Shown: positions 26,548 to 63,478 of the stretch, in pieces | How positions within the stretch are numbered: position 1 is the first letter of the stretch | Layout of the letters: each line of letters starts with the position of its first letter | Assembly: GCF_000214375.1 (NCBI RefSeq) | Contig: NC_015578.1 | Span: 3,596,001 to 3,660,000, forward strand | Direction of reading: 5' to 3' | Length of the DNA: 64,000 bases | From: Treponema primitia ZAS-2 | GTDB taxonomy: Bacteria > Spirochaetota > Spirochaetia > Treponematales > Breznakiellaceae | Translations under genes and position numbers: made by a program | The notes under the pieces: model-generated | The model's input: only the letters and a program-made list of their open reading frames with translations | The model's database searches: none | What the model was told of the DNA's origin: nothing

Positions 26548-26620
26548 CGGAGGGTTGGCTAGTGGTTAAGCCGCCAGTTTTGGGAACTGGCTGTCGGGGG
26601 TTCGAATCCCCCCTCTCCGA
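26548..26620 (+). tRNA. tRNA-Pro (anticodon UGG)
   Basis: 73 nt without encoded CCA. The acceptor stem is CGGAGGG paired with CTCTCCG (one G-T pair), with discriminator A. D-arm GGCT/AGCC. Anticodon stem CCAGT/ACTGG with loop TTTGGGA, which gives anticodon TGG. Variable loop of 5 nt. T-arm GGGGG/CCCCC with loop TTCGAAT. The C1-G72 pair and A73 fit bacterial tRNA-Pro. Confidence 0.9.
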
Positions 26621-56401: not shown

Positions 56402-57826
56402 TCACAGCTTGTCTATCAACATAGAGCATTTCCCCGAGGGGATGGGCAGGGTTTTCTTTTTCTTTCCCAGTATATTAATAGTAAAATAATACAATTTTTC
56501 GCTTTCCATGTGAATTTCCCAGCCCCGGCCGCTTTTATTGGAAAGAATGGTGATCATGTTCTTTTTGAGGGAAAGGTTCTCGATGCCCATGATTTCCAGG
56601 TTGGGGATGATCCAGTCCACGGTTTTCCGAGGGAGGGAGATAAACAGGCCGACGATGTTTTCTATGGTAAGACAGATGGTGGACAAGGCATCGTAGGTGA
56701 GGTACTGGGGCCGGGGAAAATCGGGGTTCTCCGGCCATTGGGCAGGACCTTCTTTTAAGGGCAGATAGGCTTCCCAGAGGTTGCCCTTGTGGTGGTTCCC
56801 GTCGGGGTTCATGGAGTCCAGTACAAAGTAGAGGTGGCGGATGGCGCATTCCCGGGCCAAGTCCCAGCGCTGGTACTTCTCCAGACCCTTGATCACCATA
56901 AAGGTCAGGTGAGGGTAGACCGAGCCCCGGAAGCCATTACCTGTTTCATCAAAACTGGGTTCCGATACGGCAACCGTAGGGAAAGGATGGGGGGCGCCAA
57001 AAAAAGTTGGATCCGAAAGTTTGTCGATGATCCGCTCCGCCTTATCATCGTTGGAAATCTCAGCCAGCAGGGGCCAGTAACCGGCAATGGTTTTTACTTT
57101 GATCCGTTTTTCGTCCTTATCAATATCATAGTAAAAGCCGTCATCCACATCCCACATCAGGGTATTCAGCCGGGTTTTCAGGGAAAAATACTGCCGTTTA
57201 TACTGAAAACTGGCATCCTTATCGTTCAGAATATCCGCCAGGGCGGACATATAGAGCACATTGATGGCCATCATGGTGTTGAAATCAACCGGATAAGCCG
57301 CCTCTTCCCGGGGGGCATTCGGCATACCCGTAGCAGCTAAGGGAACCTCGTAGAGGCCGTTGGGGCGCTTAAATACCGAATCGATCCATGCATTGTACTT
57401 ATCCAGGATAGGGATAACGTCCTTTACCCGCTTCTTGTTTCCCGATTTATGATAGAGGTTAAATTCCGCCCAGGCAAAGAGGGGCAGCCCCAGACCTTCC
57501 GGGTTATCCGATTCCACCACGGGCTCCCCATTTTCAATGGCATAAGCCGAGCGTATGGCCCCACTAGGTTCCTGGTGCTGGTAAAAGATATCCAAAGTAG
57601 GAAAAGCCTGGTAAATCCGGTTTGAATAGACTAAAAAAAAGGAGGAAAAAATGGCGTCAATCTGCTGAATCACCGGGCTGCCGGGGTAGGAAAAAAATTT
57701 CCCTTCCATAGCGCTTTTTTCGCCCTCCCCTTGCCAGCAGTCCTGAATCCACGCCCAGGTTTTATCATATATATCCACAAAATCCTGATCGTAAAAATGG
57801 ATCTTGGGGAAATCACGTCTTGTCAA
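56402..57826 (-). CDS. (alpha/alpha)6-barrel glycoside hydrolase (trehalase/GH63-like)
   Basis: The 474-residue protein starts at a TTG with AAGGAG 7 nt upstream. Blocks such as FSYPGSPVIQQIDAIFSSFF, ESDNPEGLGLPLFAWAEFNLY, NTMMAINVLYMSALADIL, GYWPLLAEI and NGFRGSVYPHLTFMVIKGLEKY fit the helical-barrel glucosidases of families GH37/GH63. There is no signal peptide, so it is cytoplasmic. The substrate could be trehalose, mannosylglycerate or a related alpha-glucoside. The operon with ppx and ppk suggests a link between storage compounds. Confidence 0.7.
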   Translation of the reverse strand: MTRRDFPKIHFYDQDFVDIYDKTWAWIQDCWQGEGEKSAMEGKFFSYPGSPVIQQIDAIFSSFFLVYSNRIYQAFPTLDIFYQHQEPSGAIRSAYAIENGEPVVESDNPEGLGLPLFAWAEFNLYHKSGNKKRVKDVIPILDKYNAWIDSVFKRPNGLYEVPLAATGMPNAPREEAAYPVDFNTMMAINVLYMSALADILNDKDASFQYKRQYFSLKTRLNTLMWDVDDGFYYDIDKDEKRIKVKTIAGYWPLLAEISNDDKAERIIDKLSDPTFFGAPHPFPTVAVSEPSFDETGNGFRGSVYPHLTFMVIKGLEKYQRWDLARECAIRHLYFVLDSMNPDGNHHKGNLWEAYLPLKEGPAQWPENPDFPRPQYLTYDALSTICLTIENIVGLFISLPRKTVDWIIPNLEIMGIENLSLKKNMITILSNKSGRGWEIHMESEKLYYFTINILGKKKKTLPIPSGKCSMLIDKL

Positions 57827-57952: not shown

Positions 57953-58075
57953 CAAAATGGCAAATTTTCCAGTCAATTTTTTTTATATTTAACAAAATTG
58001 ATTGAAAGAAACCCCAAAAACCAGCTTGCGCGGGGAACTTCGTTGCATGTTGCCCAGGGGAGTGTATGAGAGGTG

Positions 58076-60622
58076 ATGCCGGTGTATAAAACCCATATTT
58101 CTCTGGAAGTCCGTATTTTACTCCATACAGCGGCCCTGCCGGCAGCTGTGCCGGGGATCAAGACTTTTTGCGCGTGTGCTGCAGAGGGAGAAAAAAGCTC
58201 CTGCCCGGTCTGCCGGGGGGAAAAGGGCGCGATACCGGTTCTCAACCCCCTGGCCGCCCGGAAGGCTTATCTCCTTATCCGGAGCCTGGGCTGTTCCATT
58301 GTCAAAAAAGCCCCCTATGAAAGGAACCTCAATATCCCCCCAATACCCCAAGGTTCGGATGGAAAACCGACAATTGCCCTTTCCGGTTTATCCATAACCC
58401 TGGGGGTGGATGGCGCCCTGGACATCCTGTTCCACCGCCGGCGCAAACGGATACGGATCACCGAGGTCCGGCTGGAGGAAGATGCGGGCCGGCTGACCCA
58501 TTCGAACCGGGGAAAGGGCGGACAGCCGGAAACCAGGATGGACTATTCCAGGGCGGGTATGCCCAGTCTGCGTATACGCACCGCGGCGGATTTTGAGATT
58601 GGCGAAGAAGCCGAGGTATTCCTGGGCGAACTGCGACGGCAGATCCAATACCTGGAGATTATGCCGGGAAACCCGCTTCCCGCCTGGGAAAATGTAATCC
58701 GCTGCAATGCCTATGTGGCCATGGCCCCCTATCCGGAAAACCCGGTTAATTTTGTCAAACTGCGGAACCTCAACTCACTGAACTTTGTGGGCAAGGCGGT
58801 AAACACCGAAATGTCCCGTCAGGAGGACATAGTCCTGAACGGCGGCACCGTGGTCCCGGAAAGCCGTCTCTGGAACGAAGCGAAAAACGCTACTGAATTC
58901 TTCCAAAACCGGCCTAGCGATGAAAAGCCCCGGTTTGTCACCGAGGACCTGCTCCCTTTCATCCCTGGTCCGGATATTTTGGAAGCCCTGGATAGCTTTT
59001 CCGTGGAACTCCCCGAAGCCCGGCGGAACCGCATGATTGCCGAATACGGCCTCACCCAGCACCAGGCGGAATTTGTCTGCGACGAAAAGCGCCGGGCGGA
59101 TTACTTTGAAAAAACCGTCTCCTTGGGTACGGTACTTCCAGCGCCGACTTTAGTCGGCAAGCTTCCCGCGGATATTCCAGCGAAGCTCCCCGCAGAGAGC
59201 CGGGAAGCTGCCCAGTGGATGAGTTCCTATATTATCAAGGAATGTAACCGCCTGAATCTGACCATAGCGGACTCCCCCCTAAGCCCGGAACGCTTCGCGG
59301 AGATACTCCGTATGCTCAGGGACCATCGTATCCACGGCAGCATCGCCAAACAGGTGGTAAGCGCCGTTCTGGAGGACGACAGGGATCCCCAGGAGCTTAT
59401 CACAGAACGGGGCTGGGAACAGCTTACCAACCGGGGGGATATAAAAAATATTGTTACCGCAATTATTACAGCCAATCCCCAGGAGGTGCGCCGCATACGG
59501 GAAGGGGATGCCCGGCCCATACAGTTCCTCACCGGTTTGATCATGAAGGAAACCGGGGGCATGGCGGAACCGACCCTGGTAAAGGATATACTCCGGGAAG
59601 AACTATCGGTGTCCCTGGTGTACGTCCTCTCCATGGGGGGCGCCATTTCCGGCCGGGTCGGGGAGGACGGCGCCGTAGAAGCCGGAGACGAACAGGTGTT
59701 GAAGGAACTGCTCTCAGGGGATGAATTCCCTGTAGACGCCTCCAAAGTCCGGTTCGAATCCATCCAGGTGGGGCGTATCCTCTCGGAGGAGATAGTCCCC
59801 TCGGACTGGGCCATCCTGATCGAAACCATCGCGGACCGGCTCAATTCGGGCACCGCCAACGGCATTGTGATCGCCCACGGCACGGACACCCTGCCCTATA
59901 CAGCCCCCCTAATCTACTGGCTTTTTGCGGATGCCAATGCCCCCATAGTTTTTGCCGCCTCCTCAACCCCCCCGGGAGCCTCTTCAGAGGCCAAGCGAAC
60001 CATGAAAAAAGCGGTGGCCCTGGCCCTGGGGAAATCTAAGGGTGTCTATGTGGTACATGGCGGCAAGGTCCTCTCCCCGCTGAACCTGAAATTTGAGCAC
60101 ATAGGTGTGGACGGTTTCCGGAACTGGAATATGGAAACCCCGGTTTTTTCCGGCACATCCCTCCTCACGGGTACCCTGGAAGCGGATCAGTACGTACTCG
60201 CCCAGCTCCTGGAAGATGCGATAAATTCCATGTGCGTGATCCGTATTTACCCGGGCCTCCGGGCAGACTACCTGGTTTCTCTGATGGACAAGGGTGTTAA
60301 AAACTTCTTTCTGGAATTGTACGACACAGGAACCGCAGGTTTTCGGGAGGGACCCTACTCTCTCAAGCGGGCTTTTACCCTGGGCAAACGCCGGGGAACC
60401 CACTTTTATTGCAGCTCCCAGCAGGAGGGCATAGTCGACTTTACCGGCTATACCAGTTCCCGGGAACTTTGGCGTGTAGGCGCAGTCCCCATGGGGGCTT
60501 ATACCACCGAAACCGCCGTGGCCCGCTACCTGGCGGCCAGTATTATTGCGGACAGCGAAGAAGAGCTGACCCAGCTCATGGACAGTGCGGTTTTTTCAGC
60601 CGGTGAGAAGGACCCGGTATAA
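58076..60622 (+). CDS. GatB-like tRNA amidotransferase subunit fused to GatD-type asparaginase domain
   Basis: 848 residues from ATG 58076 (GTG 58073 is an alternative). Residues 1-510 follow GatB from end to end: Cys4 zinc site Cys32/34/43/46 (FCAC...CPVC), GAIPVLN, RITEVRLEEDAGRLTH, DYSRAGMPSL, KLRNLNSLNFV, RLWNEAK, and a YqeY-type tail (380-510). Residues 511-848 are an asparaginase of the GatD subtype (SGRVGEDGAV, ILSEEIVPSDWAILIE, HGTDT at 601-605). Key positions differ: the GatB GLEVH is SLEVR, RCDAN is RCNAY, and the asparaginase TGGT nucleophile motif is MGGA (Ala523). The reading frame is continuous, so this is a true fusion. It may be a non-catalytic or repurposed enzyme, not a standard Gat subunit. 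Confidence 0.85.
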   Translation: MPVYKTHISLEVRILLHTAALPAAVPGIKTFCACAAEGEKSSCPVCRGEKGAIPVLNPLAARKAYLLIRSLGCSIVKKAPYERNLNIPPIPQGSDGKPTIALSGLSITLGVDGALDILFHRRRKRIRITEVRLEEDAGRLTHSNRGKGGQPETRMDYSRAGMPSLRIRTAADFEIGEEAEVFLGELRRQIQYLEIMPGNPLPAWENVIRCNAYVAMAPYPENPVNFVKLRNLNSLNFVGKAVNTEMSRQEDIVLNGGTVVPESRLWNEAKNATEFFQNRPSDEKPRFVTEDLLPFIPGPDILEALDSFSVELPEARRNRMIAEYGLTQHQAEFVCDEKRRADYFEKTVSLGTVLPAPTLVGKLPADIPAKLPAESREAAQWMSSYIIKECNRLNLTIADSPLSPERFAEILRMLRDHRIHGSIAKQVVSAVLEDDRDPQELITERGWEQLTNRGDIKNIVTAIITANPQEVRRIREGDARPIQFLTGLIMKETGGMAEPTLVKDILREELSVSLVYVLSMGGAISGRVGEDGAVEAGDEQVLKELLSGDEFPVDASKVRFESIQVGRILSEEIVPSDWAILIETIADRLNSGTANGIVIAHGTDTLPYTAPLIYWLFADANAPIVFAASSTPPGASSEAKRTMKKAVALALGKSKGVYVVHGGKVLSPLNLKFEHIGVDGFRNWNMETPVFSGTSLLTGTLEADQYVLAQLLEDAINSMCVIRIYPGLRADYLVSLMDKGVKNFFLELYDTGTAGFREGPYSLKRAFTLGKRRGTHFYCSSQQEGIVDFTGYTSSRELWRVGAVPMGAYTTETAVARYLAASIIADSEEELTQLMDSAVFSAGEKDPV

Positions 60623-61587: not shown

Positions 61588-61636
61588 TTGAAAATCGGCC
61601 CCCTAACCGGGTATGCTGTCTTTCAAGGACTACACC

Positions 61637-63478
61637 ATGAAATTTTCAGAGACCCTTATCCCCACCCTCCGGGAAGTTCCCGGGGATGCGGTGATCGTCA
61701 GTCACCGGCTGATGCTCCGGGCGGCCATGCTCCGCAAACTCTCCAACGGCCTCTTTGCCTACCTGCCCCTGGGGCTGCGCTCTTTCAGAAAGGTGGAGCG
61801 GATCATTCGGGAGGAGATGGATGCCATCGGCGCCCTGGAAATCAAGCCCACCGTGGTGGTTCCCGGCGAATTATGGAAGGAATCGGGGCGCTGGGACTCC
61901 ATGGGGGAGGCGCTTTTGCGGGTAAAGAACCGGCTGGGGTCGGATTTTGTGGTGTCCCCCACTGCGGAGGAGGCCTTTACCGCCCTGGTCCGGGACGAGC
62001 TTTCCAGTTACCGCCAACTTCCCCTTTCCCTGTACCAGATCAACACCAAGTACCGGGACGAGGTCCGCCCCCGCTACGGGGTCATGCGGGGCCGGGAATT
62101 TACCATGAAGGACGCCTATTCCTTCCATACTAACGAAGAAAGTCTGGATGAGACCTATCAAAAAATGGGCCGGGCTTACCGGCGTATCTTCAAACGCTGC
62201 GGCCTCACGGTGATCCCTGTCCAGGCCGATTCGGGGGCCATGGGCGGCACGGGGTCGGAAGAATTTATGGTGGAAAGCGAAATCGGGGACAATACCCTGC
62301 TGCTCTGCAAAGCCGGCGATTACGCCGCCAATGTGGAGAAAGCCGGCTGTAAGCCCGACTACAGCGCCCCCGCTTCTCCGGAAGCCGCCAAGGCCGCCGC
62401 TGCTTCGATTCCGGCGCTGGAAAAAATCGACACCCCCCATGTCAGGACCATCGAGGAACTTTGCGCCTTCCTTAAAACCGATGCGAAAAAATTTATCAAA
62501 ACCCTGATCTACAAAGCGGTCAACGTGGAACTGGACCTCAGCTCCGCCCCGGGCTGTTCCAAACTTCAGCGGCGCAAACCTGCCCCGGATGCGCCCGAGG
62601 TGTACCCCGAAGCCTTCTTTGCCGTGGCCATCCGGGGCGACCTGGATGTCAACGAAGTCAAACTTGCCGCGATTATCAAAGCCGCAGAAGTCATGCTTGC
62701 AGCGGACACGGATGTGGAGCGGATCACCGGCGCACCGGTGGGCTTTGCCGGGCCTGTGGGGCTCAGCACGGTCCCGGTGATCGCCGACGAAACCGTCACC
62801 GCCATGAACGATGCTGTGGCCGGGGCGCTTGCCAAGGACCTCCACTATACCCACGTTGCCTATGGTCGGGACTTTGGCCCCTGGCTGGTCACGGATCTAC
62901 GTACCGTGGTCGCCGGGGACCGTTGCCCTGTCTGCGGGGGAGAACTCTACGAAAAGAAGGGAAACGAGCTGGGGCATATCTTCAAGCTGGGATACAAGTA
63001 TACCACTTCCATGAAGGTCAGCTATCTAGACGAAAACGGCAAAAGCCACACCCCCACCATGGGGTGCTACGGCATAGGCCTGGATCGGACCCTGGCCTCG
63101 GCTATTGAGGAACACCACGACGATCAGGGCATACTCTGGCCCATAACCCTTGCGCCCTTCCATGTGATCATCATCCCCATCAAATACGACGGGGCGGTCA
63201 AGGCTGTTACGGATCAAATCGTTGCGGAGCTGGAACAGAAGGGCATAGAAATACTGCTGGATGACCGGAACGAACGACCCGGGGTCAAGTTCAACGATGC
63301 AGACCTCATCGGCATACCCTACCGGGTGGTGGTGGGGGATAAGAATCTTGCCGGGGACACCCCCAAGGTCGAGGTAAAAGCGCGGGCCGAAAAGGAAAAC
63401 CGGCTGGTGGAAGTGAGCAAAGCTGCGGATGAGCTGGCGGCCCTGGTTTTCAGCGCATTGGCGGAACTTAACCGGTAG
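61637..63478 (+). CDS. proS: Prolyl-tRNA synthetase (bacterial type)
   Basis: 613 residues from MKFSETLIPTLREVP; AAGGA lies 7 nt upstream, which favours this ATG over 61613. Class II motif 1 is FAYLPLGLRSFRKVERIIREEM, and motif 2 lies in YQINTKYRDEVRPRYGVMRGREFTMKDAYSFH. The INS editing domain occupies about 225-410. Motif 3 is MGCYGIGLDRTLAS, followed by an anticodon-binding domain (VIIIPIKYDG). It charges tRNA-Pro; a tRNA-Pro gene is also in this window. Confidence 0.95.
   Translation: MKFSETLIPTLREVPGDAVIVSHRLMLRAAMLRKLSNGLFAYLPLGLRSFRKVERIIREEMDAIGALEIKPTVVVPGELWKESGRWDSMGEALLRVKNRLGSDFVVSPTAEEAFTALVRDELSSYRQLPLSLYQINTKYRDEVRPRYGVMRGREFTMKDAYSFHTNEESLDETYQKMGRAYRRIFKRCGLTVIPVQADSGAMGGTGSEEFMVESEIGDNTLLLCKAGDYAANVEKAGCKPDYSAPASPEAAKAAAASIPALEKIDTPHVRTIEELCAFLKTDAKKFIKTLIYKAVNVELDLSSAPGCSKLQRRKPAPDAPEVYPEAFFAVAIRGDLDVNEVKLAAIIKAAEVMLAADTDVERITGAPVGFAGPVGLSTVPVIADETVTAMNDAVAGALAKDLHYTHVAYGRDFGPWLVTDLRTVVAGDRCPVCGGELYEKKGNELGHIFKLGYKYTTSMKVSYLDENGKSHTPTMGCYGIGLDRTLASAIEEHHDDQGILWPITLAPFHVIIIPIKYDGAVKAVTDQIVAELEQKGIEILLDDRNERPGVKFNDADLIGIPYRVVVGDKNLAGDTPKVEVKARAEKENRLVEVSKAADELAALVFSALAELNR

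Follow-up and report, generated by a model that had tools for sequence, protein, structure and literature searches.

A fused GatB with altered active sites

What use does a bacterium have for a GatB that runs, in one reading frame, into an asparaginase-like domain, when key residues of both halves have been replaced? The question is posed by a gene in a 64,000-nucleotide stretch of Treponema primitia ZAS-2 DNA, the whole of which we refer to as the window. A preliminary description of the gene had suggested either a sensor of aminoacyl-tRNA or asparagine, or a new amidotransferase. The reading we prefer, with a probability of about 0.45 as judged from sequence comparison, is that the gene originated in an ancestral fusion operon and would now encode a non-hydrolysing sensor of asparagine or aspartate on a GatB scaffold.

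The open reading frame map shows a stop-free forward frame from 58073 to 60622, with three Pfam domains above their cut-offs in the order GatB_N, GatB_Yqey and a full asparaginase fold, and the in-frame fusion proposed earlier is thus upheld. The likeliest start is the GTG at 58082, because it sits eight bases past a GAGG (at 58070) and is level with the starts of homologues, and the predicted protein is therefore 846 residues long. An AlphaFold2 model (mean pLDDT 79, pTM 0.55) has strands beginning near residue 4, ahead of the Pfam limit of GatB_N at residue 29. In this model the best structural match of residues 1–510 is GatB of GatCAB (VIA Z 29–31), and residues 510–840 match asparaginases (VIA Z about 26–27, up to 26.8). 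The features are collected in Table 1.

Table 1. Features of the fusion gene and its divergent neighbour, in window coordinates
Feature	Position	Strand	Remarks
Orphan GatB::asparaginase gene	58082..60622	+	846 aa from GTG 58082; 848 aa if the start is ATG 58076
GatB_N (cradle) domain	58160..58957	+	Pfam PF02934, residues 29–294, 108 bits, above cut-off
GatB helical/YqeY tRNA-binding tail	59192..59605	+	Pfam GatB_Yqey PF02637, residues 373–510, 120 bits, above cut-off
Asparaginase-like domain	59618..60583	+	Residues 515–836; Pfam Asparaginase 515–686, 82 bits, above cut-off
Arg13	58112..58114	+	Replaces Mg-binding His (S. aureus His12, yeast His36); EVH to EVR
Arg166	58571..58573	+	Replaces Mg-binding Glu (S. 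aureus Glu150, yeast Glu186), the Glu of LIEIVT
NAYVA	58706..58720	+	Replaces DANVS; RCDAN to RCNAY; Tyr213 for the ATP residue Asn (yeast Asn230), Ala215 for the ATP residue Ser (yeast Ser232)
Ala523	59642..59644	+	Replaces first nucleophile Thr (E. coli asparaginase II Thr12); TGGT to MGGA
Ser570-Glu571-Glu572	59783..59791	+	At substrate-binding Ser58-Gln59 of E. coli asparaginase II; invariant in 70/70 fused proteins
Thr603-Asp604	59882..59887	+	Second nucleophile and substrate-amine binder; HGTDT intact; Asp604 invariant in 70/70
Lys672	60089..60091	+	Lys162 of E. coli asparaginase II
Hydrolase-like gene	56402..57826	-	Divergent from the orphan; weak trehalase/alpha-glucosidase similarity, 54 bits, far below cut-off

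The GatB half has lost metal and nucleotide ligands

The cradle, helical and YqeY domains of GatB are all present (PF02934 and PF02637 above cut-off), and over residues 1–510 the protein shares the fold of bacterial GatB and its domain order ending in the YqeY tail. However, it scores below the GatB family cut-offs (NF004012, 280.5 bits against 338; TIGR00133, 233 against 314.8), and it is unlike bacterial GatB in having Arg for the His and Glu Mg ligands and Tyr and Ala for the ATP Asn and Ser, in lying away from gatC and gatA, neither of which is found at its locus, and in its C-terminal asparaginase domain. We call fusions of this kind orphans, and those whose GatB site is intact canonical-site fusions. 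The altered motifs given in the preliminary description (EVR, RCNAY and MGGA, with HGTDT intact and the YqeY tail kept) are all confirmed, although its list had overlooked Arg166; Asn211, in RCNAY, is a further GatB motif residue.

In yeast GatB, Mg is assigned to His36, Glu156 and Glu186, and ATP to Glu34, Thr189, Asn230 and Ser232 (PMC4027206). We took a census of these positions in 70 fused proteins, 62 orphans and 8 canonical-site fusions. The Mg His is Arg in 61/61 orphans and His in every readable canonical-site fusion; the Glu186 equivalent is Arg in 60/62 orphans, and that of Glu156 is retained in 62/62. Among the ATP residues, orphans keep the Glu34 equivalent or have Asp, keep Thr189 in 62/62, and carry Tyr, His or Phe for Asn230 in 62/62 and Ala or Gly for Ser232 in 58/62. 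The orphan clade thus consistently keeps one of three Mg ligands and two of four ATP residues, the remainder being replaced, and the readable canonical-site fusions retain them all.

Concerted, conserved swaps of this kind (His to Arg, Glu to Arg) resemble the new use of a pocket rather than decay, as would be expected if the GatB site had been re-modelled into that of a new amidotransferase or kinase. We regard this reading, the amidotransferase part of which had been raised before, as very improbable: the whole clade lacks two of the Mg ligands and half of the ATP residues that were assigned in yeast GatB, gatC and gatA have left the locus and no GatA glutaminase is encoded nearby, and of the two halves that of GatB evolves the faster. 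As a side observation, a four-Cys, zinc-binding-like cluster at the GatB N-terminus is kept by the window protein and is gone in orphans L018, L026, L027, L028 and L029.

The genome has its own gatCAB

The Treponema primitia ZAS-2 genome (one contig, 4,059,867 bp) encodes a second GatB at 524982–526445 on the reverse strand, which adjoins GatA and carries no asparaginase domain. The order at this locus is gatC, gatA, gatB and then an AspRS of 436 residues, which the model of the non-discriminating family matches with 497 bits against a cut-off of 353. The search for a separate gatCAB set proposed earlier is thereby answered, and the candidate explanation that the orphan is the only GatB of the genome is rejected. 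AsnRS, GlnRS and an AsnB-like protein are also encoded, and because of this the resident GatCAB probably serves Asn-tRNA synthesis, as it does in bacteria with both synthetases (PMC4206432). Asparagine synthetase status shows no consistent link, with AsnB in this genome, AsnA in several others, and neither clear in G022, G034, G479 and G327, weak PF00733 matches (20–30 bits) not being counted.

A working gatCA raises the alternative that the orphan is a regulatory decoy, which would replace GatB in GatC-GatA or the transamidosome to give inactive complexes, in a proportion set by asparagine through the asparaginase-like domain. The retained GatB fold and YqeY tail fit such a role, as does the lack of variation among orphans at many cradle-domain residues, Glu135 and Thr169 among them. 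We nonetheless think it unlikely, for orphans have a degraded version of the MRTKE..DYRYFPEPDLPP segment that canonical GatB conserves, and the orphan locus is without gatC and gatA; moreover, in family f3 (Treponemataceae) the resident GatCAB is foreign, so that an interface shaped for the ancestral partner would need to match a different one.

A working fusion in an ancestral operon

Canonical-site fusions offer a direct view of what the orphan may have been. Genomes G327, G413, G442, G446 and G479 have no PF02934 protein other than the fusion, which adjoins GatA and has PF02934 scores of 379–390 bits against 60–158 in orphans; two fen bins (L065 and L068) also carry this form, and one of the two fused copies of G022 belongs to it. 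These proteins carry GLEIH, LLEIVTEPD and MEEGSLRCDAN and clear the GatB cut-off at 560–622 bits. The order is gatC, gatA, gatB::asparaginase and then usually aspS, which in G442 and G022 belongs to the aspartate--tRNA(Asn) ligase family (non-discriminating, tRNA(Asn)-charging); no aspS directly after gatB was seen in the open reading frame map of G446 or G479, and G479 has one about 1 kb downstream. Canonical-site fusions (those of the five genomes and one G022 copy) resemble the orphan in full-length architecture (about 40–48% identity in each half), in a shared locus neighbour and in loss of the same nucleophile. They differ from it in their intact GatB site, in being the sole GatB of five genomes, in their operon and in having the GatB half better conserved. 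The preliminary description had held that lack of any other GatB, together with normal amidation, would mark a working Gat enzyme; the window gene has a second GatB beside it in the genome, and it is these relatives, with a fusion as only GatB beside GatA in five genomes, that come near to that state.

The divergent hydrolase-like gene (Table 1) lies at most 289 bp from the orphan in 34 loci. In five loci it lies 1.7–2.3 kb from the canonical-site fusion and is transcribed away from gatC, with gatC-gatA filling the gap. Genes ppx and ppk are found near orphans and canonical-site fusions alike, and from these shared neighbours we conclude that the orphan occupies the site of the old operon. Both forms occur in G022 (L073, G022:C53, and L085, G022:C70), one a working fused GatB in gatC-gatA-gatB::asparaginase-aspS and the other an orphan, and this genome is an evolutionary intermediate.

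Phylogeny of the two halves

Trees were made of the GatB part (45 rows, 17 of them orphans) and of the asparaginase part (31 rows). In the former, the 17 orphans form a single clade (support 100/100) on a long branch (1.18). In family f1 the unfused GatBs, that of the window genome among them, have the fused GatB of G022 as their sister (100/100), and have therefore lost the asparaginase domain; the unfused GatBs of G375 and G465 group with the fused GatB of G327 (99/99), a placement that marks a second loss of the domain. The GatBs of f3 stand far apart in a clade of their own (100/100), which we read as replacement of the native gatCAB by a foreign operon. In the loci concerned (L179–L184 and L138), the Treponemataceae gatCAB seems foreign to other Spirochaetia, and three f3 genomes that were examined have no GlnRS and no non-discriminating AspRS.

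In the asparaginase tree, which holds besides the fused domains only three solved structures and three standalone asparaginases, all fused domains form one clade (100/100), with the orphans as one clade within it (98/97), and a single fusion event is therefore the simplest reading. The examined genomes hold the fused domain at most once, G022 excepted. GatD groups with ordinary asparaginases on the opposite side of the tree from the fused clade.

The preliminary description had placed the domain in the GatD subtype and compared the protein with the archaeal GatDE system, in which GatE is GatB-like and GatD asparaginase-like. Both part types do occur in one system in each case, and the SEE motif, close to the SED of GatD, is the sole feature that leans this way. 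In GatDE, however, the parts are separate chains, and the GatD chain carries an N-terminal domain besides its active Thr. This N-terminal domain is missing here, the asparaginase match opening at residue 515, four residues past the YqeY end, and GatD models align only from model position 60–71 onward. On the window protein the scores of the GatD models (89.5 and 84.8 bits) are close to that of the type I asparaginase model (85.3 bits), and the GatD scores fall under their cut-offs (310 and 324 bits, respectively). The small asparaginase tree, where fused asparaginases form a clade of their own, gives no support to an origin of the fused domain in archaeal GatD.

Trees, residues and gene order together indicate that the window gene descends from a GatB::asparaginase that is the sole GatB in several other Spirochaetia. 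In the Treponematales, one copy remained where the operon had been, now lacking gatC and gatA, and lost the GatB Mg/ATP site; meanwhile the working GatB lost its asparaginase domain (f1 and f2), or a foreign operon seems to have replaced the native one (f3).

The asparaginase half keeps its binding residues

Asparaginases have two catalytic triads (PMC8948990), and the equivalences to E. coli asparaginase II used here are alignment-based. At the position of the first nucleophile the 70 fused proteins have Ala (62), Thr (4), Ser (3) or Val (1). The first Thr is missing in nearly all canonical-site fusions too, which indicates that it had gone before orphan and canonical forms split, with substrate-binding residues being kept. 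In the window protein the first Thr (TGGT) is absent, and Thr603-Asp604-Lys672 and Ser570 are present.

The best structural matches of this half include the T13A mutant of BlAsnase in complex with L-Asn or D-Asn (7c8x, 7c91) and the Asn-bound T19A mutant of guinea-pig asparaginase (5dnc), and the natural Thr to Ala change in the fusion is the same mutation that crystallographers have used to trap the intact substrate. The likeness to type I L-asparaginases and these mutants covers the fold and the Thr-to-Ala change at the nucleophile. The differences are that the change here is natural, conserved and fused to GatB, that Glu stands at the Gln59 position, and that the Lys and the second Thr are incompletely kept across the fused family.

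Might the protein still be an amidohydrolase, cutting asparagine or another amide by means of Thr603-Lys672, or of the first Thr where present, with the GatB half as a localisation device only? The Lys672 equivalent is kept in 61/62 orphans (it is Arg in 3/8 canonical-site fusions) and Thr603 in 56/62; no other part is as well conserved as the asparaginase half, and by profile search the fusion is the sole PF00710 protein of its genome. On the other hand, the remaining six orphans have Lys, Ala, Leu or Ser in place of Thr603, the first Thr is gone from most fused proteins including nearly all canonical-site fusions, and the equivalent T19A change leaves human ASPG with zero asparaginase activity (PMC5443537), all of which makes continued hydrolysis distinctly unlikely as a general account. 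Four f3 orphans (L095, L098, L107 and L112) have Thr at the first-nucleophile position, possibly regained; hydrolysis may be possible there, since Thr603 and Lys672 accompany it.

Distribution and selection

A match to the query is found in 108/149 relatives, about 29 of which encode the fusion with 53–76% identity over most of its length, the rest matching by GatB only. A GTDB species scan, made with peptides of this orphan, gave 34 fusion loci, all in Spirochaetota, with Breznakiella homolactica and a bin of Gracilinema caldarium among the carriers, and beside them one unrelated plain GatB. A scan of 393 genomes of the phylum added fusions in the Treponemataceae (f3) and in families f12, f17, f18 and f22. 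The lineages found in these scans to carry the fusion, a search that the preliminary description had proposed, are Spirochaetota: about 60 relatives in the order Treponematales share both the fusion and the altered residues, and other Spirochaetia families have the fusion with a canonical GatB half.

The gene evolves under strong purifying selection, with a median dN/dS over 35 close pairs of 0.16 for the GatB half and 0.08 for the asparaginase half. Together with the recurrence of the motif residues in the Treponematales relatives, this excludes chance, a frameshift as the source of the fusion, and a sequencing error at the motifs, the last of which had been named as a possible source of the oddity. 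Among f1 orphans the asparaginase half is the better conserved in 818/820 pairs (78% identity, against 65% for the GatB half), and the reverse holds for six canonical-site fusions in 15/15 pairs (48% for the asparaginase half and 65% for the GatB half); selection has shifted to the asparaginase half in the orphan.

It could be asked whether the gene is simply a decaying, functionless relic of the ancestral operon. It has lost gatC, gatA and catalytic residues, and an orphan copy in the Treponemataceae (L118/L074, G102:C21:43114-45448) is broken by stops or a frameshift, so the gene can be lost. Many complete relatives (for example, G035 and G099) are without the orphan gene, which is therefore non-essential. 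A relic is nevertheless scarcely credible, and is refuted for the lineage of the window by full-length conservation across many genera, the low dN/dS and over 100 residues that are nearly invariant among orphans.

A putative asparagine sensor

The explanation we favour, a double pseudoenzyme derived from the ancestral operon and acting as a non-hydrolysing sensor, fits best among the options raised in the preliminary description. The asparaginase-like domain would bind asparagine (or aspartate) unhydrolysed; in the ancestor it would have ridden on an amidotransferase making Asn-tRNA(Asn), as product control, and in the window gene the GatB half would relay the signal as a non-catalytic scaffold that perhaps binds tRNA. 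The ancestral fusion was thus probably a product sensor on tRNA-dependent asparagine synthesis, and the orphan would be a stand-alone sensor, because ligand-binding residues are fixed and catalytic residues free, the Thr to Ala change is a substrate-trapping one, and asparagine is the product of the ancestral operon. We hold it possible, with some doubt, that the nucleophile-less domain on a working GatB is a natural asparagine sensor controlling tRNA-dependent asparagine synthesis, split in the Treponematales onto a pseudo-GatB that itself senses asparagine and tRNA. Counting against a sensor role in Asn-tRNA synthesis, f3 keeps the orphan, and the three f3 genomes examined have no non-discriminating aspS; the present role need not therefore concern Asn-tRNA synthesis.

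To our knowledge no feedback sensor on tRNA-dependent asparagine synthesis has been described. The component families are already known; in open-licence PMC papers we found nothing on a GatB-asparaginase fusion or on T13A, nor the combination, the shared nucleophile loss, the operon or the orphaning. Related genomes provide a natural set of working fused GatB, orphan pseudoenzyme fusion and unfused GatB after domain loss, and if the domain binds asparagine, an enzyme would have become a receptor by a single Thr-to-Ala change. The gene would be labelled GatB or asparaginase in annotation, and neither activity is to be expected of it.

An Rfam search found no RNA elements upstream of the orphan, and gave in the window a tRNA-Pro (TGG) alone, at 26548–26620 on the forward strand. 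Downstream of the orphan, at 61613–63478 on the same strand, lies a prolyl-tRNA synthetase-like frame.
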